From contig DLKD01000032.1 in assembly GCA_002477755.1 (NCBI GenBank), positions 1 to 49,329 of the forward strand: DNA of 49,329 nucleotides, written 5' to 3'. The notes under the pieces were generated by a model. That model had not been told where the DNA came from, searched no databases, and was given only the letters and a program-made list of their open reading frames with translations. This stretch comes from Gordonia sp. UBA7599 (GTDB lineage Bacteria > Actinomycetota > Actinomycetes > Mycobacteriales > Mycobacteriaceae). Of this stretch, positions 13,645-49,329 are shown piece by piece. Within the stretch, counting starts at the first letter, position 1; every line of letters begins with the position of its first letter. The translations under genes and the position numbers were made by a program.

Positions 13645-15426
13645 TCAGGGCGGCGGCGCGAGGTCGCGCTTCAAACCCACGTGGTTGGCCGTGTAGCCGA
13701 GGCGGGCGTAAAACTCGCGGGCCCGCTCACGGGTCTCGTCAGTGGTCACCTGGGCCAGCGTCGCGCCGTGCGACCGACCGTGTGCGTGTGCCCAGGTGAG
13801 CATCGCCGTGCCCAACCCCCGCGACCGGTCGGCCCGGGCCACCCGCAAGCCCTCGATCTGCAGCCGCGTCGTGCCCCGCCGCGACAGGCCCGGCAACACG
13901 GTGAGCTGCATGGTGCCGACCACCCGCCCGTCGTCGGCGCGCACCACCGCGAGGTAGTGCGACCGGTCGCGGGCAACGACGTCGTAGGCGGCCTCGTAGG
14001 GGGCGTACTCGGCGACCTCGCGAGTGGCGCCGATCCGATCGTCCAGCAGCAGTCCGACGATCGCGGGCACATCGGCACGGGTCGCGCGCTGCACGCGGAA
14101 CGTCTCACCGTCGCGGTTGACCAGAACTCCGCCGACTGACGAGCGGGCGCCCGCCTGCAGGGTGGCGACCAACCGGTCGAGCCACCCACCGACGTTCGTC
14201 CGGGCTTCGGGGGTGTCCGGGTAGCGGCACCGCAGGTGCAGTCCCGAGCCATCGAGGATGAACCACAGCATGACGCCGTCAGTTCGGATCGTCGCGCCGA
14301 CGTACTGGGCGCCGAGGCCGGCGGCGTCCACCCGCACCGGCAGGCGACGCAGGTCCAACCACGAGATCGCGAACATCCCGGGCGCCTCGGGCATACCGCC
14401 CCAGGGGGCGAGCACGTCGTCCAGCGGCCAGGACCCCAGCCGCACGGCCTCCCGGACCGCTGCCGATGCGGCCCGTGGCTCCGCGACGGTGGATTCGAGG
14501 ACCGAGTTGGTGATGAACCACCCGACCGAGTCGTGCCAAGTGTCGTCATAACGGCTGTGGACCGGGAACACTGCCCGTAGCGGTGCATCGGCCATCTCTG
14601 CGGTGACCGCCGTCATCGCGGCGACGGCCAGCGCCAACGTCGACACCCCGTCATCGCGCGCCTGTGCCGAGAACGCGGCACTGTCGTCGACGTCGAACAC
14701 GTCGCGGACCTCGACCCGCTCCTCGTGCGGATCGGCGGTGCCCAGCGGCAGGGGGAACAGCGGCATCACGCCGCCACTGTCGTCGATGATCTCGGCCCAG
14801 CGTCGCCGCACATCGTCGGGGGCAGCCGCCCTCTCGCGCAATGCGCGCGTGTGCGCGACGAAGGGCGGCACCTCGTCCAACCCGGACGCCTCACCGGCCT
14901 CGACGCGCCCGAGTGCCGCCAGGAAGTCACGCAGGATCAGCAGCATCGACCACATGTCGACGTGCGAGTGGTCGGCGGCGACGACGATCGTCGGCCCGGC
15001 CGCCGTCTCCAGGACGCACAACCGGTGCGAAGGGCGCGAGTACGGGGTGCACGTGCGGTCGAGCACGTCGCGCAGCGCGTCGTTGACCGCCTCACCGGGG
15101 GCGACCGGGTGTTCAATCCACTCCCCCGCGCTGATCTCGACGTCGGCGAGTTCGGGCTCGTCGTCGGATCCGGGCGTGAAGACCGTGCGCAGCGTGCCGT
15201 GGCGGGCGATGACCGCGAGCCACGCCGCCGCGAGCTCGTCGAGGCCGACGGAGTCGGTCAGTCGGAACGACAATGCCATCCACGAACCGCCGCGCTCACC
15301 GGCACCGACGTGACGCCGCTGATCGAAGGACACCGGCAGGACCGCACCGGGCTCGGAGACGGTGACGTCGTAGCCCATCAACCGGCCGAACGGGAGGCGC
15401 AGGTGGGCGACGTTGGTGAGCCGCAT
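13645..15426 (-). CDS. Condensation-domain protein fused to GNAT acetyltransferase
   Basis: A 593-residue two-domain protein. Residues 1 to about 430 form a condensation-like acyltransferase fold: DHSHVDMWS holds the HxxxD pair His153-Asp157, and later segments (SVGWFITNSVLE, TIRTDGVMLWFILDG) resemble the PapA/NRPS condensation group. Residues about 435-593 are a GNAT N-acetyltransferase domain with the acetyl-CoA pyrophosphate loop RADRSRGLGTAML and an ending like ...ARLGYTANHVGLKRDL. The motif is DH rather than HH, as in several PapA-like enzymes. Substrate unknown; envelope lipid or a small amide product is possible. TAGGGT ends 6 nt before the ATG at 15426, supporting the start. It may be transcribed with peroxiredoxin downstream (55-base gap). 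Confidence 0.78.
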   Translation of the reverse strand: MRLTNVAHLRLPFGRLMGYDVTVSEPGAVLPVSFDQRRHVGAGERGGSWMALSFRLTDSVGLDELAAAWLAVIARHGTLRTVFTPGSDDEPELADVEISAGEWIEHPVAPGEAVNDALRDVLDRTCTPYSRPSHRLCVLETAAGPTIVVAADHSHVDMWSMLLILRDFLAALGRVEAGEASGLDEVPPFVAHTRALRERAAAPDDVRRRWAEIIDDSGGVMPLFPLPLGTADPHEERVEVRDVFDVDDSAAFSAQARDDGVSTLALAVAAMTAVTAEMADAPLRAVFPVHSRYDDTWHDSVGWFITNSVLESTVAEPRAASAAVREAVRLGSWPLDDVLAPWGGMPEAPGMFAISWLDLRRLPVRVDAAGLGAQYVGATIRTDGVMLWFILDGSGLHLRCRYPDTPEARTNVGGWLDRLVATLQAGARSSVGGVLVNRDGETFRVQRATRADVPAIVGLLLDDRIGATREVAEYAPYEAAYDVVARDRSHYLAVVRADDGRVVGTMQLTVLPGLSRRGTTRLQIEGLRVARADRSRGLGTAMLTWAHAHGRSHGATLAQVTTDETRERAREFYARLGYTANHVGLKRDLAPPP

Positions 15427-16416: not shown

Positions 16417-17277
16417 ATGGCAGGCGAACCCCCGCTGTTGCGGGTCAAGAATGCGGTGATCGAGCCGCTACCCCACGCCGTTCGGGCGTGGCTGGTCCGA
16501 TTGGCCGCACTCATCGCGTTTCTTCTGGTGTGGTGGCTGATCACGGCGCTGCACCTCGTCGACGAGAAGTTCCTCCCGACACCGGCGGCGGTGTGGCGCG
16601 CAGCCGTGCGCGCGAGCACCTGGCACCAGGTCGCGCCGGGTGTGCCCCGCGAGGTACTCGGCGAACAGAACTACTTCCTGTGGGAGCACCTCGTCGCCAG
16701 CCTGCAGCGGATCGGCGCCGGCGTCGGTGCCGCGATCATCCTCGGACCGATCGTCGGCTTCCTCATGGGCACGTCCAAGACGTTCGGCACGATCGTCGAG
16801 CCTTACATCAACTTCCTGCGCGCACTTCCGCCGCTGGGCTACATCGGCCTGCTGATCGTCTGGTTCGGTATCGGCGACACCTCGAAGATCTGGCTGCTGT
16901 TCCTCGCCGCGTTCCCCGCGATCGCGATCTCGACTGCCGACGGCGTGCTCTCGGTCAAGCAGGACCAGATCAACGCGGCCCGCGCACTCGGCGCCAGCCG
17001 GTCCCAGACCGTGACTCGCGTGGTGCTCCCGGCGACCGCTCCGGAGGTCATCAACGGCATCCGGATCGCCGTCGGATTCGCGTGGACGACCGTCGTGGCC
17101 GCCGAGTTGAACAACGGCATCCCCGGCATCGGCGGGTTAGCGTACCTGTCGGGCCAGCAGCTCAACACCGCGCTGACGATCGCCTGCATCGTGGTCATCG
17201 GCATCACCGCCCTGGCGCTCGACGCGCTGATCAAGTGGATCGGCGTGCTCCTCGTGCCGTGGAAGGGAAAGGCATGA
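16417..17277 (+). CDS. tauC: Taurine/sulfonate ABC transporter permease
   Basis: A 286-residue inner-membrane permease of the TauC/SsuC type with about six membrane segments. The early FLPTPAAVWRA stretch and EAA loop INAARALGASRSQTVTRVVLPAT (about 187-209) are the hallmarks of this class. It begins the operon tauC-tauA-tauB and overlaps tauA by ATGA. The permease imports sulfonates together with the ATPase and binding lipoprotein. No Shine-Dalgarno is visible, and a GATTAT box 6 nt upstream suggests a leaderless transcript. Confidence 0.87.
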   Translation: MAGEPPLLRVKNAVIEPLPHAVRAWLVRLAALIAFLLVWWLITALHLVDEKFLPTPAAVWRAAVRASTWHQVAPGVPREVLGEQNYFLWEHLVASLQRIGAGVGAAIILGPIVGFLMGTSKTFGTIVEPYINFLRALPPLGYIGLLIVWFGIGDTSKIWLLFLAAFPAIAISTADGVLSVKQDQINAARALGASRSQTVTRVVLPATAPEVINGIRIAVGFAWTTVVAAELNNGIPGIGGLAYLSGQQLNTALTIACIVVIGITALALDALIKWIGVLLVPWKGKA

Positions 17278-42939: not shown

Positions 42940-43011
42940 GGGGTAGATGTTCCTGCCTCGTAGTGTGGGGGGCGATTGCCCTTTCAAGAACCAGACCCGC
43001 CCACGACGAGA

Positions 43012-43027
43012 AACGTGACGTCACGTT
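43012..43027. promoter_or_regulatory. Perfect 16-bp palindrome
   Basis: AACGTGACGTCACGTT in the gap between divergent wrbA and sigma factor genes; could be a repressor operator. No cognate regulator gene is next to it. Confidence 0.55.
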
Positions 43028-43059
43028 CGGGGGGCGGCTCGGGTCTAGGAGACGTGGAG

Positions 43060-43935
43060 ATGTACGACGACGTCGCGGCGGAGTTTGAAACGCACCGGCC
43101 GAAGATGAAAGCCGTCGCGCGACGGCTACTCGCCTCCGACGCGGACACCGATGACGCGGTCCAAGAGGCGTGGGTGCGGCTTCAGCGCACCGACCGCGCA
43201 TCGATCGACAACCTTGAGGCGTGGTTGATGACGACGGTCGGGCGGATCGGACTCAACCAGCTGCGCTCGCGCGCGACCAGGCGAGAAATGCCGTTGGATC
43301 ACGTTTCCGAGTCGAGCGATCCGCTGGCGCACCCGGATCCAGAGATCGACGTGCTGCTGGCGGAGACCGTCGGTTCGGCCCTGCAGGTCGTCGTCGACAC
43401 GCTGACCCCGGCCGAACGGGTCGCGTTCGTGCTGCACGACGCATTCGGTTTCCCCTACGCCGAGATCGGCCGGGTGCTGAATCGTTCGTCGGAGGCGGCC
43501 CGCCAGCTGGCCAGCCGTGGGCGTGGCCGGATCCGCCACACCGATCCCAGCGACCTTGATTCTGCGATCCCGGCCGCCGAACAGATCGTCGTCGACGCGT
43601 TCCTCTCTGCGGCGAAGGGCGGTGACCTCAACGCCTTGGTAGATGTTCTCGACCCGCAGATCGTCGAACGCATCGCGGTCGCCGGGCAACCGGTCATCGA
43701 GGTGCGCGGCGCCGAGTCAGTCGCGAGCCGGGCCCGAGAATTCTCGTCGAACTACACCGACGCACGCCCCGCAATCATCAACGGCCGGCCGGGCTGGATC
43801 GCGTACCGCGATTCAGCGGTCTACAGCGTCGGCGCGCTCGCCATCACCGACGGCCGAATCGACCGGATGGACGTCATCCTCGACCCAGCACGGCTGAGGC
43901 AGTTCCACATCAGGACACCGGCAACCGGCTCATGA
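43060..43935 (+). CDS. ECF RNA polymerase sigma factor with SnoaL-like C-terminal domain (ECF41/SigJ-like)
   Basis: A 291-residue extracytoplasmic-function sigma factor. Region 2 is YDDVAAEFETHRPKMKAVARRLLASDADTDDAVQEAWVRL (residues 2-41); region 4 is DTLTPAERVAFVLHDAFGFPYAEIGRVLNRSSEAARQLASRGRGRI (about 112-157). The C-terminal 120 residues form a SnoaL-like domain (VDAFLSAAKGGDLNALVDVLDP), as in the ECF41 group, where it regulates the sigma part without a separate anti-sigma factor. ECF41 genes often sit next to an oxidoreductase or carboxymuconolactone decarboxylase; here WrbA is the divergent neighbour. ATG 43060 has AGGAG 8 nt upstream; the GTG at 43054 is too close to it. Confidence 0.88.
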   Translation: MYDDVAAEFETHRPKMKAVARRLLASDADTDDAVQEAWVRLQRTDRASIDNLEAWLMTTVGRIGLNQLRSRATRREMPLDHVSESSDPLAHPDPEIDVLLAETVGSALQVVVDTLTPAERVAFVLHDAFGFPYAEIGRVLNRSSEAARQLASRGRGRIRHTDPSDLDSAIPAAEQIVVDAFLSAAKGGDLNALVDVLDPQIVERIAVAGQPVIEVRGAESVASRAREFSSNYTDARPAIINGRPGWIAYRDSAVYSVGALAITDGRIDRMDVILDPARLRQFHIRTPATGS

Positions 43936-44015
43936 GGAAGTCGATCTGGTCGCGAGGGGTCCCGCACGGCCCTTCAAGCCGACGCCGATAGGCGGTTCGG
44001 GCAGATCAGGTTTCC
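43936..44015 (+). ncRNA. Candidate cloverleaf-like structure upstream of fdh operon
   Basis: The 100-base gap before the formate dehydrogenase gene can fold as a closing stem GATCTG (43943-43948) with CAGATC (44002-44007), enclosing three short hairpins: GCG(A)GG-CCCGC (43952-43965), CGGC-7nt-GCCG (43967-43981) and CGCC-GATA-GGCG (43983-43994). An outer GGAA (43936-43939) pairs with TTCC (44012-44015). It resembles a tRNA cloverleaf but lacks a T-arm and a proper anticodon loop. If the promoter at 44024 is used, this RNA is not part of the fdh transcript. High GC makes short stems easy to find by chance. Confidence 0.25.
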
Positions 44016-44035: not shown

Positions 44036-47000
44036 ATGGCGAGGTTCAGCCCCCTCGAGTGGCCGGTCATCCGGCAGCTGCGGTCCGGTGACAAGCTCGG
44101 GCGCGGTCCTGCAGTCGAATCGCCACGCACCAAAGCCCTCGAGTCCCGGTTGGTCTCGGCCGATCGTGTCGCTCAGAGCGTCTGTCCCTTCTGCGCTGTC
44201 GGATGCGGCCAGAAGGTGTATGTCAAGGACGAGCGTGTCATCGCCATCGAGGGTGACGAGGATTCGCCGATTTCACGGGGCCGATTGTGTCCGAAGGGCT
44301 CATCGAGCGAGCAGTTGGTCAACAGTCCCTTGCGGCAGACCAAGGTTCGCTATCGCGCACCGTATGCCACCGACTGGCAGGATCTCGACCGCGACCGCGC
44401 GATCGACATGATCGCGGATCGATTCATCCAAGCGCGCCGCGAGCACTGGCGCGACACCGATGAGCACGGGAGGCCGCTGCGGCACACCCTTGGAATCGCC
44501 TCGCTGGGCGGCGCCACGCTGGATAACGAAGAGAACTATCTGATCAAAAAGCTCTTCACCGCGGCCGGGGCCATCCAGATCGAGAATCAGGCCCGCATTT
44601 GACACTCCGCCACGGTTCCCGGTCTGGGAGCCTCGTTTGGCCGCGGTGGCGCCACCCAGTCCCTGCAGGACATGGCCAATGCCGACTGCATTGTGCTCAT
44701 GGGCGGCAACATGGCGGAGGCGCACCCCGTCGGATTCCAGTGGGTCGCTGAAGCGAAGGCCCGCGGTGCACGCGTGATTCACGTCGATCCGCGTTTCACA
44801 CGGACCTCAGCGGTGGTCGACAAACACATCCCGATGCGGGTGGGTTCGGACATCGTGCTGCTCGGTGGGTTGATCAACTACGTGCTGACCCATGACAAGC
44901 ACTTCCACGATTACGTCGTCGCGTACACCAACGCGGCAGCTCTGATCGACGCCGATTTCGTCGGCCCCGAAGACCTCGACGGACTGTTCTCCGGCTTCGA
45001 CCCGGAGACCGGAACGTATGACACGGCCAGTTGGCAGTACTCGGGCGGCCGGGACGAGACGCTCACCGATCCGCAGTCGGTGTTCCAGCTCCTCAAGCGG
45101 CACTTCGCCCGCTACACGCCGGACATGGTCGAGCAGATGTGCGGCGTCTCGGCGGCCGATTTCGACTACTTGGCGCGGTCGCTGACCGACAATTCCGGCC
45201 CCGAGCGCACCGGTTGTTTCGGGTACGCGACCGGCTGGACCCAGCACACGATGGGTGCTCAGGTGATCCGCACCGCGGGCATCCTGCAACTTCTGCTAGG
45301 CAATGTCGGACGCCCGGGCAGCGGCATCATGGCGCTGCGGGGTCACGCCAGCATCCAGGGGTCGACCGACATCCCGACCCTGTTCAATCTGCTGCCGGGA
45401 TATCTGCCGATGCCGTCAGTGGGTAAACACGACACCTTCGCCGATTACGTGCGGGCGGTCACCCCGGTCACCGGAAAGGGCTACTGGGCATACGCCGACG
45501 CCTACACCGTCAGCCTGCTCAAGGCGTGGTGGGGTGATGCGGCGACCGCGGAGAACGATTGGGCCTACGACTACCTGCCCCGCCTCAACGGCCCGGCGGG
45601 GACCTACCAGACGGTCGTGAACATGCTGGAGGGCCAGGTCGACGGCTACTTCATCATCGGCCAGAACCCGGCCGTCGGTTCGGCGAACGCCCGTCAGCAG
45701 CGCCTGGCGATGGCCAAACTCAAGTGGCTCGTGGTGCGCGACCTCAACATGATCGAGAGCGCGACCTGGTGGAAGGACGGACCGGAGATCGCGTCAGGCG
45801 AACTCAAGACCGAGGAGATCGGCACCGAGGTGTTCTTCCTGCCTGCCGCGACGCACGTGGAGAAGTCGGGCAGCTTCACACAGACCCAACGCATGGTCCA
45901 GTGGCGGCACCAGGCGGTGTCGCCCCCCGGAGACGCACAGAGCGAACTGGACTTCTACCACGATCTGGGCGTACGGATCCGGGCGCGACTGGCTGATTCG
46001 GACGATCCGCGTGATCGGCCGATCTTAGATATGACCTGGGATTATCCAGTGAACGACCACGGTGACATCGACCCCGAAGCGGTGCTCGTCGAGATCAACG
46101 GGCGGTATGCGACGGGGCCCGACGCGGGCGCCCCGCTGGACTCGTACACCCAGCTCAAAGCAGACGGCTCGACCTTGGCCGGGTGCTGGATCTATACCGG
46201 CGTCGCCGCGGGCGGCGTCAATAAGGCGGCCCGCCGGGAACCGCAGGGCGGCCCCAGCGTGACCCAATCGGAGTGGGGATGGGTATGGCCGGCCGATCGC
46301 CGGATCCTCTACAACCGTGCCTCCGCCGATCGGCAGGGCCGTCCGTGGAGTGAGCGCAAGAAGTACGTCTGGTGGGACGAAGCGGCCGGCCGCTGGATCG
46401 GCGACGACATTCCCGACTTCCCGGCGACGACCCCGCCAGGGCGGCAGCCGGAGCCCGGTGCGATAGGCGCCGATGCGATCGGTGGCGACGACCCGTTCAT
46501 CATGCAGTCCGACGGCAAGGGCTGGCTCTTCGCACCGAGCGGGCTGGTCGACGGTCCGCTGCCCACGCACTACGAGGCGCAGGAGTCGCCGGTACGCAAT
46601 GCGCTGTACCAGCAGCAGCAGGCGCCGGCTCGCGTGATGATGCCGCGCGCGGACAATCTGGATGCGCCCAGCGCCGGCGACCCGGGGGTGGAGGTGTACC
46701 CGTACGTCTTCACGACCTACCGGCTCACCGAGCACCACACGGCTGGCGGAATGAGTCGATGGTCGCCCTATCTCGCGGAACTGCAGCCGGAAATGTTCTG
46801 TGAGATCTCACCGGCACTGGCCGCGGAGGTCGGAGTGGTCAACGAGGGCTGGGCGACGATCATCTCGCCCCGCGCGGCGATCGAGGCGCGGGTGCTGGTC
46901 ACCGACCGGCTGCGGCCGCTCGACATCAACGGGCGCGCGGTCCACCAGATCGGTCTGCCGTATCACTGGGGGCAGGGCGGTGACGCCGTCGTCACCGGTG

Positions 47001-47242
47001 ACGCGGCGAACGACCTGATCGGCGTCACGATGGACCCCAACGTGTTCATCCAGGAGTCCAAGGTCGGGTCATGTGCAATGATCGCCGGCCGGCGTCCGCG
47101 GGGTGGCGCCGCACTCGATCTGGTTCGTGAGTACCAGCGACGCGCGGGTGTCACGATGGAGACGGACAATGAGAGAGTGACTGCGACCGACGATGCCGAT
47201 GGACCCCGGGTGCAGGAAGGAGACCGGCAATGGGACAGTTGA
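44036..47242 (+). CDS. fdhA: Formate dehydrogenase catalytic subunit, selenocysteine-containing (UGA recoded)
   Basis: Molybdenum/tungsten-bis-MGD enzyme that oxidises formate to CO2. Reading through the TGA at 44600-44602 gives one 1068-residue chain; without it the frame breaks into 188 residues and a downstream piece starting in the conserved region. The TGA is residue 189, in IENQARI-U-HSATVPGLGASFG, aligned with the Sec and following His of E. coli FdnG. The N-terminal [4Fe-4S] site is Cys50, Cys53, Cys57 and Cys85. Downstream segments (AEAHPVGFQWVAEAK, IHVDPRFTRTSAVVD, YATGWTQHTMGAQVIRT, LRGHASIQGSTDI, RRILYNRASADRQGRPW, TYRLTEHHTAGGMSRW) follow FdnG. There is no Tat signal, unlike FdnG, so the subunit should remain cytoplasmic. 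It overlaps fdhB by 13 bases. A TACTCT box 6 nt before the ATG suggests a leaderless mRNA. Confidence 0.93.
44600..44602 (+). other. In-frame UGA encoding selenocysteine (residue 189)
   Basis: Frame is continuous on both sides (23 codons from the TGA to the next ATG in the same frame), protein similarity runs through it, and a SECIS-like hairpin follows at the proper distance. Confidence 0.92.
44614..44632 (+). promoter_or_regulatory. Bacterial SECIS element
   Basis: A 7-bp stem GGTTCCC/GGGAGCC (one G-T wobble) with the loop GGTCT. Eleven bases separate the TGA and the stem; 18 bases separate the TGA from the GGTCT. By memory the E. coli fdhF SECIS has the same 18-base distance and the same GGUCU loop that SelB recognises. 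This supports insertion by SelB. Confidence 0.9.
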
Positions 47243-48249
47243 CCGGCCCCACCGACCCGAGCGCCGACGCCGCCTGGCCGATACTCGAGGAGCGGCGCGG
47301 CTTCTTCACCGACACGTCGATCTGTATCGGCTGCAAAGCCTGCGAGGTGGCGTGCAAGGAGTGGAATGGCAATCCGCGCGACGGCGACCTGGAGTTCACC
47401 GGGATGTCGTACGACAATTCGGTGGCGCTGGGCGCCAGTACCTGGCGTCACGTCGCCTTCATCGAGCAGGATGCCGAGCGGATCGAGACCGCACGTGAAT
47501 CCGGCGCGCGGCTCGTCGGGCTGGGAATGCCGCAGTTGCGCACGAGGGTCGACGCCGAGCCTGCCGCCGCCGAACCCACCGGGGACTCGACACCTCCGGA
47601 CACGCCCGAGTTTCGCTGGCTGATGTCGTCGGACGTGTGCAAACACTGCACGCACGCCGGCTGCCTCGACGTGTGCCCGACCGGCGCGATGATGCGCACC
47701 GAGTTCGGGACCGTGGTGGTGCAGTCGGACATCTGCAACGGCTGCGGAACCTGCGTGGCGGGCTGCCCGTTCGGCGTGGTCGAGCGGCGCAGCGATGGCA
47801 CCGTCGCGCCGACCACTCGCGACGGCGAGCGCAAAGGTGAGCAGCCCGCTGTGCCGAAGCGGGGCGTCGCGCAGAAGTGCACTCTCTGCTACGACCGCCT
47901 GCGCGCGAACGAGACCCCGGCCTGCGCCAAGACCTGTCCGACGACGTCGATCTCGTTCGGTGATCGGGCGGAGATGGTCGCCAAGGCGCACGACCGGGTG
48001 GCGCAGCTGCACACGGCCGGCATGACCGAAGCGCGGCTGTACGGAGCCAACGAGAACGACGGCGTGGGCGGCACCGGTTCGGTGTTCCTCCTGCTCGATG
48101 AGCCGGAGGTGTACGGACTGCCGCCGGATCCGCGGGTGCCGACAGCAGATCTGCCGACCATGTACAAGCGGGCCGGGCTCGCGGTGGCGGGAATGGCCGC
48201 CGCAGCGGCCGTCTCGTTCCTGGGTTCATCGAGGGACCGGCGCCGATGA
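47230..48249 (+). CDS. fdhB: Formate dehydrogenase iron-sulfur (electron-transfer) subunit
   Basis: A 339-residue ferredoxin-like subunit of the FdnH/HybA type. Four [4Fe-4S] motifs are clear: CIGCKACEVAC (about 32-42), CKHCTHAGCLDVCP (about 137-150), CNGCGTCVAGCP (about 169-180) and CTLCYDRLRANETPACAKTCP (about 217-237). A C-terminal hydrophobic stretch (AGLAVAGMAAAAAVSFLGSS) may anchor it, ending in a basic tail. No Tat signal. It links FdhA to the membrane subunit. It overlaps fdhA by 13 bases and fdhC by ATGA, so the operon is tightly coupled. Confidence 0.93.
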   Translation: MGQLTGPTDPSADAAWPILEERRGFFTDTSICIGCKACEVACKEWNGNPRDGDLEFTGMSYDNSVALGASTWRHVAFIEQDAERIETARESGARLVGLGMPQLRTRVDAEPAAAEPTGDSTPPDTPEFRWLMSSDVCKHCTHAGCLDVCPTGAMMRTEFGTVVVQSDICNGCGTCVAGCPFGVVERRSDGTVAPTTRDGERKGEQPAVPKRGVAQKCTLCYDRLRANETPACAKTCPTTSISFGDRAEMVAKAHDRVAQLHTAGMTEARLYGANENDGVGGTGSVFLLLDEPEVYGLPPDPRVPTADLPTMYKRAGLAVAGMAAAAAVSFLGSSRDRRR

Positions 48250-49329
48250 CCAGCTCCGAGTACGACCAGTTCCGGCCGCCTCGGCCCGATCGTCGAGGCG
48301 GCCGGAAGGACAAGGGCCGCAAGGGATCCGGGTGGAGCCGGGGCGCCGATCTGATGGTGCCGACAGTGGAGGTGGCCAAACTCGACGAGCACGGCTACTA
48401 CGGTCGCCCGGTGGTGAAGGCACCGCCGTGGGAGTGGCCCATCGGCCTCTACCTGTTCCTCGGCGGCGTGGCCGGCGGATCTGCGGTGCTGGGGGCCGGA
48501 GCTCAGCTCACCGGCCGGGAGACCCTGCGCCGAAACACCCGTCTTGCCGGGCTGGGTGCCGCGTCGCTGGGCGCCCTTGCGCTGGTGGCGGACCTCGGCC
48601 GTCCCGAACGCTTTCTGCACATGATGCGCACCTTCAAGGTCACCTCACCGATGAGTGTCGGCTCCTGGATTCTGACGGGGTACAGCGGACTCGTCGGCGT
48701 TGCCGCCGTCGGCGAGGTGGACCGGATGACCGGCGACCGACTGCCTCTCGGTCCGTTGCGGCCGGTGCTGCGGACCGCGGAACCGATGTCCGGGCTCGGC
48801 GCCGGCCTGATGGGCGCACCGCTGGCCGCGTACACGGCGGTGCTGCTCGGGGACACCGCGATGCCGACCTGGCACGCCGCGCACCGCGATCTGCCTTTCG
48901 TCTTCGTCAGTTCGGCGAGCCTGGCCGCGGGCGGGTTGGGCATGATCACCACCCCGGTCGAAGACGCCGGGCCGGCGCGGGCGCTGGCCGTGATCGGCTC
49001 GGCGTGCGAACTGGCGGCCACCGAGTTGATGGAGCACTCCATGGATCCGGTGGCGGCCGAACCGCTGCACCAGGGCACGCCCGGCAAGCTGCTGGAGTGG
49101 AGCAAGCGGCTGGTCGCGATCGGCGGCCTGGCGGCGTTGGTCGGCGGCCGCAACCGGACGGTCGCCGCACTGTCGGGTGTCACGTTGCTGACCGCCTCGG
49201 CGCTGACCCGGTTCGGTGTGCTGCACGCCGGCATTCACGCCGCCAACGACCCCCGCTACACGGTGGTGCCGCAGAAGAACCGGCTCGCCAAGCGCCGCGC
49301 CGAAGGAATCGTGGACGACTCGATCACCA
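48246..49329 (+). CDS. NrfD/PsrC-family membrane subunit of formate dehydrogenase, partial
   Basis: The first 361 codons of a membrane protein; it runs off the right edge. After a basic soluble N terminus of about 60 residues (KDKGRKGSGW...), WPIGLYLFLGGVAGGSAVLGAGAQL (about 62-86) is the first segment of the NrfD family, with LGRPERFLHMMRTFKVTSPMSVGSWILTGYSG as the following signature region. Several more segments follow. This family is a quinone-linked membrane anchor different from the cytochrome b of E. coli FdnI. With a cytoplasmic FdhA, the complex may be a quinone-reducing formate dehydrogenase. Further genes (for example maturation factors) are outside. Confidence 0.87.
   Translation, partial: MTSSEYDQFRPPRPDRRGGRKDKGRKGSGWSRGADLMVPTVEVAKLDEHGYYGRPVVKAPPWEWPIGLYLFLGGVAGGSAVLGAGAQLTGRETLRRNTRLAGLGAASLGALALVADLGRPERFLHMMRTFKVTSPMSVGSWILTGYSGLVGVAAVGEVDRMTGDRLPLGPLRPVLRTAEPMSGLGAGLMGAPLAAYTAVLLGDTAMPTWHAAHRDLPFVFVSSASLAAGGLGMITTPVEDAGPARALAVIGSACELAATELMEHSMDPVAAEPLHQGTPGKLLEWSKRLVAIGGLAALVGGRNRTVAALSGVTLLTASALTRFGVLHAGIHAANDPRYTVVPQKNRLAKRRAEGIVDDSIT

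Follow-up and report, generated by a model that had tools for sequence, protein, structure and literature searches.

Sec-containing formate dehydrogenases of Actinobacteria, where Sec is selenocysteine, have been described from Corynebacterium aurimucosum and from A. chiangmaiensis DSM 45062, whose genus we take to be Actinomycetospora. For the former, the part of the published account that we draw on describes an fdnG gene bearing a UGA, with fdnG-fdxH clustered with selD, selC, selA and selB, as well as a second formate dehydrogenase gene, of the thiol type (PMC2830990). For the latter, the corresponding excerpt gives an FDH1 cluster that codes for a Sec-FdhA of 1078 residues, FdhB, FdhC, SelA and SelB, SelD being unlisted there; formate removal was selenite-dependent and Sec-FDH proteins were detected (PMC7176365). 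Moreover, UAG-decoding formate dehydrogenases are recorded for Geodermatophilaceae in the extract used here (PMC5330540), and a table in a further source, likewise used in extract, has the Sec trait transferred into Arthrobacter from other Actinobacteria (PMC5029168). Going by these excerpts, the gene order, the Sec and the selenium dependence are already published for other Actinobacteria (PMC2830990, PMC7176365). A literature search combining Gordonia, selenocysteine and formate dehydrogenase surfaced only work on oil-spill bioremediation.

The system analyzed here comes from Gordonia sp. UBA7599 and lies at the right end of a stretch of 49,329 nucleotides (contig DLKD01000032.1), which we call the window. 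It shares with C. aurimucosum a UGA-bearing formate dehydrogenase gene, but belongs to another genus, and it is known from its genes, whereas the excerpted report on A. chiangmaiensis covers three Sec-FDH systems with experiments (PMC7176365). Its features are as follows.

44036..47242, + strand: fdhA, alpha subunit of a formate dehydrogenase, predicted to contain Sec; 1068 residues; NF041513, TIGR01553.
44600..44602, + strand: in-frame TGA, codon 189, probable Sec; aligned with the Sec of 1kqf and 1h0h; TGA in 80 of 80 named loci.
44614..44632, + strand: SECIS-like hairpin with a 7-bp stem and a GGUCU loop at 44621-44625, from pair counts, invariant positions and synonymous conservation.
47230..48249, + strand: fdhB, 4Fe-4S ferredoxin-type beta subunit; 339 aa; Fer4 domains.
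48246..49329, + strand: fdhC, NrfD-like membrane anchor; PF03916 NrfD; passes the window's right end.

Directly upstream of fdhA, on the same strand (42976-43935), is a gene for a SigJ-like ECF sigma factor that scores under the cut-off of the SigJ model.

On translation, the frame at 44036-47242 holds a single internal TGA, at 44600-44602, and ends with the TGA at 47240-47242. Read through, it yields 1068 residues, the approximate size predicted from the letters of the window without database searches (the sequence-only reading). A table-11 list of open reading frames cuts the same frame into 188 and 856 aa. The expectation that automated annotation splits the gene is thus true of such a list, but not of annotation at large, because the NCBIfam model NF041513 (formate_DH_Act) exists and because the gene tables of two plasmid records (L167 and L168) list the orthologue, whose Sec site is TGA, as a single full-length CDS. 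FdhA belongs to the NF041513 family (1846.6 bits, cut-off 1400), also exceeds the cut-off of TIGR01553 (918.7 bits against 814.2), and contains the domains PF04879, PF00384 and PF01568. In sequence alignment, residue 189 is matched with Sec (shown as X) in E. coli FdnG (1kqf, 'ARVXH') and in 1h0h ('ARIXH'), and a His follows directly (TGA-CAC), just as had been proposed; a stop at the Sec site and then a His is likewise a trait of the NF041513 family. The codon is TGA in all 80 named loci, which are the best-matching 80 of at least 587 confirmed loci, that is, the closest ones and no sample of all formate dehydrogenases. They include L021, from a Gordonia MAG with an FdhA 97% identical to the window's. 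In these respects the window's fdhA is an ordinary member of its already described family.

E. coli FdnG, of formate dehydrogenase N, has a Tat signal, and its partner FdnI is a cytochrome b. FdnG is homologous to FdhA over residues 33-998 and shares with it the Sec followed by His. Reading the translation of FdhA, on the other hand, reveals no RR pair upstream of the first Cys of the cluster; in 14 of the 80 named loci an RR occurs within the stretch of up to 60 residues that precedes the cluster, and the highest 15-residue hydropathy mean is 1.39. Unlike the cytochrome b gamma subunit of FdnGHI, FdhC matches NrfD PF03916 (63.8 bits, gathering score 25.8). The sequence-only reading was therefore right to take FdnG as a homologue sharing Sec and His, but the complex is another one, without a visible Tat signal and with an NrfD-like partner, and the comparison may mislead on the Tat signal and the membrane anchor. 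The best family of FdhB is TIGR01582, at 161.6 bits and under the cut-off of 334.7.

A hairpin starts 11 nt after the TGA and places its GGUCU loop 18 nt after it. The SECIS hairpin with a GGTCT loop that had been put 18 bases downstream is found, loop included, but the 18 bases separate the TGA from the loop, and the stem begins after 11. In the part of the literature source used, nucleotides 15-31 of the bacterial SECIS form the upper stem-loop, U17, G23 and U24 are its fixed positions, and in the E. coli element U17 is placed outside the paired stem (PMC8659212). Counted from the T of the TGA, these positions correspond to 44616, 44622 and 44623, and all three are invariant in 111 loci, a set that includes the window's gene, counts it twice (L102, L103), probably counts G. 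hirsuta twice (L022, L104), and amounts to 84 distinct 60-nt segments. Within 36 chosen sequences U17 faces a single nucleotide, which is G in 20, A in 12 and another in 4. U24 is the wobble position of codon 196, which reads GGT in 42 of the 80 relatives and AGT in the other 38, never GGC or AGC, even though these genes use GGC more than any other Gly codon. Synonymous variability across the same relatives (780 codons scored) is lowest at codons 188-200 among all stretches of ten scored codons.

Pairing in the 36 sequences points the same way in part. Standard pairs fill 96.4% of the pair cells, a share that drops to 71.4% or below once the partner is shifted, and none of 500 shuffles reached the covariation score. 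Two of the seven pairs changed on both sides and three never vary; the number of such double changes was matched by 125 of 500 shuffles and position 15 is unpaired in 5 of the 36, both of which count against the hairpin. Pair 18:30 occurs as U-A, C-G and U-G in TGA loci and additionally as G-C and G-U in loci where the codon is TAG. Fold energy of the 56-nt stretch gave no signal relative to dinucleotide shuffles (z = -0.47; 53 of 200 fold equally well or better), so that the case for the hairpin rests on comparison and not on energy. For the window's 24-nt hairpin, 3.65% of 2000 synonymous recodings fold at least as well; for the 84 distinct segments the median z is -1.98, and as many as 24% of recodings do equally well. 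Rfam searched over the whole window at gathering scores gave no match, and the search with a SECIS model that the sequence-only reading had recommended fell short: SECIS_3 reached 28.9 bits, below its gathering score of 63, with an E of 9.7e-5 in a 251-base search at lax thresholds. A model built from the 36 sequences (R1) returned fdhA from its own genome with 72.3 bits (E 3e-12), and the next four matches had E 0.22 and worse, with 150 of 3061 first-look candidates scored; on this account that genome gives no hint of a further selenoprotein with an fdhA-type hairpin. Two of the weak matches, L170 and L171, were viewed as bare sequence.

That the organism should possess SelA, SelB, SelD and tRNA-Sec, none of them in the window, had been deduced from the TGA alone, and the absence of selB and selC from the genome had been named as fatal to the idea. 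The assembly, a draft of 3.80 Mb in 173 contigs and 93.91% complete, contains all four genes together on another contig, C118: selB (278.3 bits, curated cut-off 242.25), selA (406.4 bits, 267.9), selD (299.3 bits, 125) and selC, a tRNA-Sec with anticodon UCA (69.8 bits, against a cut-off of 47 that is imperfectly specific, one tRNA-Ser passing it in each of four relatives at 47.6-51.5 bits). ARAGORN finds no tRNA within the window, as expected with selC on another contig. Unlike the cluster of C. aurimucosum, as that source presents it, the sel genes are thus on a separate contig of the draft. Mapped on L021, however, the window's right end falls at 15315 and the right end of C118 at 15538, 222 bp apart; the sel genes therefore probably lie just beyond the window's right edge. 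Judged from this relative, the order is most likely fdhA-fdhB-fdhC, then a convergent selD, then selC-selA-selB directly outside the window. The selD gene contains a run of N near the end of C118, the two sides of which overlap by 22 bp on L021.

The same association recurs in relatives. In 67 of the 80 named loci selA, selB, selC and selD are all within the fetched locus, in 6 some are and in 7 none; six of these last seven are on contigs that are short or that stop about 2.5 kb or less downstream of fdhA, and L088 is on neither kind. In several Mycobacterium loci (L030, L038, L055 and similar ones) the sel genes are upstream of fdhA and, except for selD, on the opposite strand. SelB of those loci is about 47-49% identical to that of the window's genome (62% over a short piece in L075), compared with about 60-66% where Mycobacterium and Mycolicibacter loci have their sel genes downstream. 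It may be that similar FdhA proteins are served by two sel lineages.

Across the order, 168 of 249 genomes hold the N-terminal part of FdhA at E 1e-70 or better. Every one of the 150 matches listed, from 140 genomes, has an in-frame stop, TGA only in 115, TAG only in 34 and both in 1; all 34 TAG-only matches among those listed belong to one family, f16, probably Geodermatophilaceae. In L156 (G248:C4) a second in-frame stop, TAG, is present besides the TGA in the N-terminal part. Examples of the TAG type in f16 are L148-L153, L158 and L159-L162. In the seven stretches read, from six genomes, TAG is at the Sec site and all seven hairpin pairs form, and the tRNA-Sec has anticodon CUA in the four TAG-type genomes examined (ARAGORN labels the CUA tRNA-Sec of f16 genomes tRNA-Pyl). 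These orthologues thus have the same Sec site and hairpin as the window but a different codon and anticodon, and match the Geodermatophilaceae of the extract cited above (PMC5330540). The comparison with Cys-bearing relatives that the sequence-only reading had called for was run on six homologues (L141-L146) and agreed with it: they have TGC or TGT, form 3-4 of the 7 hairpin pairs and lack G23-U24, and a selA search of their genomes found none, G219 giving only a background match of 9.3e-4.

A SelB HMM was over its cut-off in 150 of the 249 genomes, with at most five candidates scored per genome, a procedure in which EF-Tu and related proteins can crowd out SelB. SelB matches of about 1e-65 or better (exponents judged by eye) occur in 147 of the 168 FdhA-holding genomes; because of the possible misses, the remaining 21 were re-checked with selA. 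Leaving G153 out of the classing, 8 were above the cut-off, 2 partial (G096, G054), 6 were the Cys forms without selA, and four TGA-type genomes (G136, G068, G117, G167), all drafts of 80 to 440 contigs, had no selA above background (8.8e-5 for G117), while all three control genomes (G074, G190, G016) had it. G136 is apparently the same as record L022 of G. hirsuta, with a TGA-type fdhA and a draft marked 100% complete; it gave no tRNA-Sec above the cut-off, no SelB-grade match among the candidates scored, and no selA. Since the L022 contig stops inside fdhC, a loss of the sel genes looks the same here as an assembly gap. TGA genes without selA in these four drafts are what could be expected if the stop were read as another residue, by near-cognate read-through with Cys or Trp and without Sec machinery. 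We consider this distinctly improbable, because the CUA anticodon of the tRNA-Sec in TAG-type relatives ties the codon to tRNA-Sec and because it is the six Cys forms that go without selA.

A sequencing or assembly error that made a Cys codon a TGA, which the sequence-only reading had itself named as its possible undoing, is conceivable in a draft of 173 contigs and for a family with Cys homologues, but is close to negligible in view of the same-codon TGA throughout the named loci, the 97%-identical Gordonia MAG included, the 7 of 7 hairpin pairs here against 3-4 in the six Cys forms read, and the full sel gene set. Next to no credence is due either to a pseudogene stopped at codon 189, for which the two ORFs of the plain table-11 reading might speak: the stop is kept across genera, and among the codon differences 3' of the TGA synonymous ones predominate over non-synonymous ones (88 to 23 against L021, 248 to 123 against L022), so that the part behind the TGA is under selection as protein. 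Error and pseudogene are both very unlikely.

The observation of a Sec-site TGA is thus confirmed and its interpretation supported: fdhA almost certainly codes for the catalytic subunit of a Sec-containing, membrane-bound molybdopterin formate dehydrogenase, FdhABC, with UGA-189 decoded by the Sel machinery via the hairpin. As predicted from the genes, SelA and SelD would make Sec-tRNA-Sec with anticodon UCA, and SelB, bound to the hairpin (U17, G23, U24) just 3' of the UGA, would bring it to the ribosome, which would read UGA-189 as Sec. Sec-189 would then coordinate the metal cofactor, with His-190 as the adjoining active-site residue. Electrons would presumably pass from FdhA to FdhB, on to the NrfD-type anchor FdhC and to the quinone pool. 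The active site may face inward, in keeping with the lack of a visible Tat signal.

A further suggestion, less likely than not to be right, is that fdhABC with selD, selC, selA and selB travels between Actinobacteria as a self-contained module and supplies the 21st amino acid to one enzyme only. In Arthrobacter, a plasmid of 130 kb that is typed as conjugative (L168; NZ_CP110115.1, plasmid pYA7-1a, 10001-19874) carries fdh with TGA at the Sec site, the 4Fe-4S subunit, nrfD, selD, tRNA-Sec (16613-16707), selA and selB, adjoining a Tn3 transposase; a mobile element here holds a Sec-decoding module in full. DNA similarity between the window and L021 ends 57 bp upstream of fdhA (from window position 43979 leftwards), so that the left neighbours of the block differ in two close Gordonia. 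In a quick tree of FdhA, rooted at the midpoint and without bootstrap, the window's Gordonia group branches with Tsukamurella, separately from G. amicalis and G. namibiensis. It is on the conjugative plasmid with its Tn3, the differing left neighbours and this grouping that the suggestion is based. The same block as in L168 is present in L167 (NZ_LR134459.1, 10001-19553), a record labelled Tsukamurella tyrosinosolvens plasmid 17; this plasmid is typed non-mobilizable, and the record might be a mislabelled chromosome. Of 72,556 plasmid records searched for selA, 148 had a match, in most cases at less than 60% identity, with Sinorhizobium in the lead.

For annotation, a plain ORF caller splits fdhA, and reading through the TGA corrects the gene. 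In this Gordonia, the oxidation of formate by FdhA is suggested to be selenium-dependent. For the family, the set of orthologues with UGA, UAG and Cys, with matching tRNAs and sel genes, provides a tidy natural test of Sec recoding, a phenomenon that is itself known.
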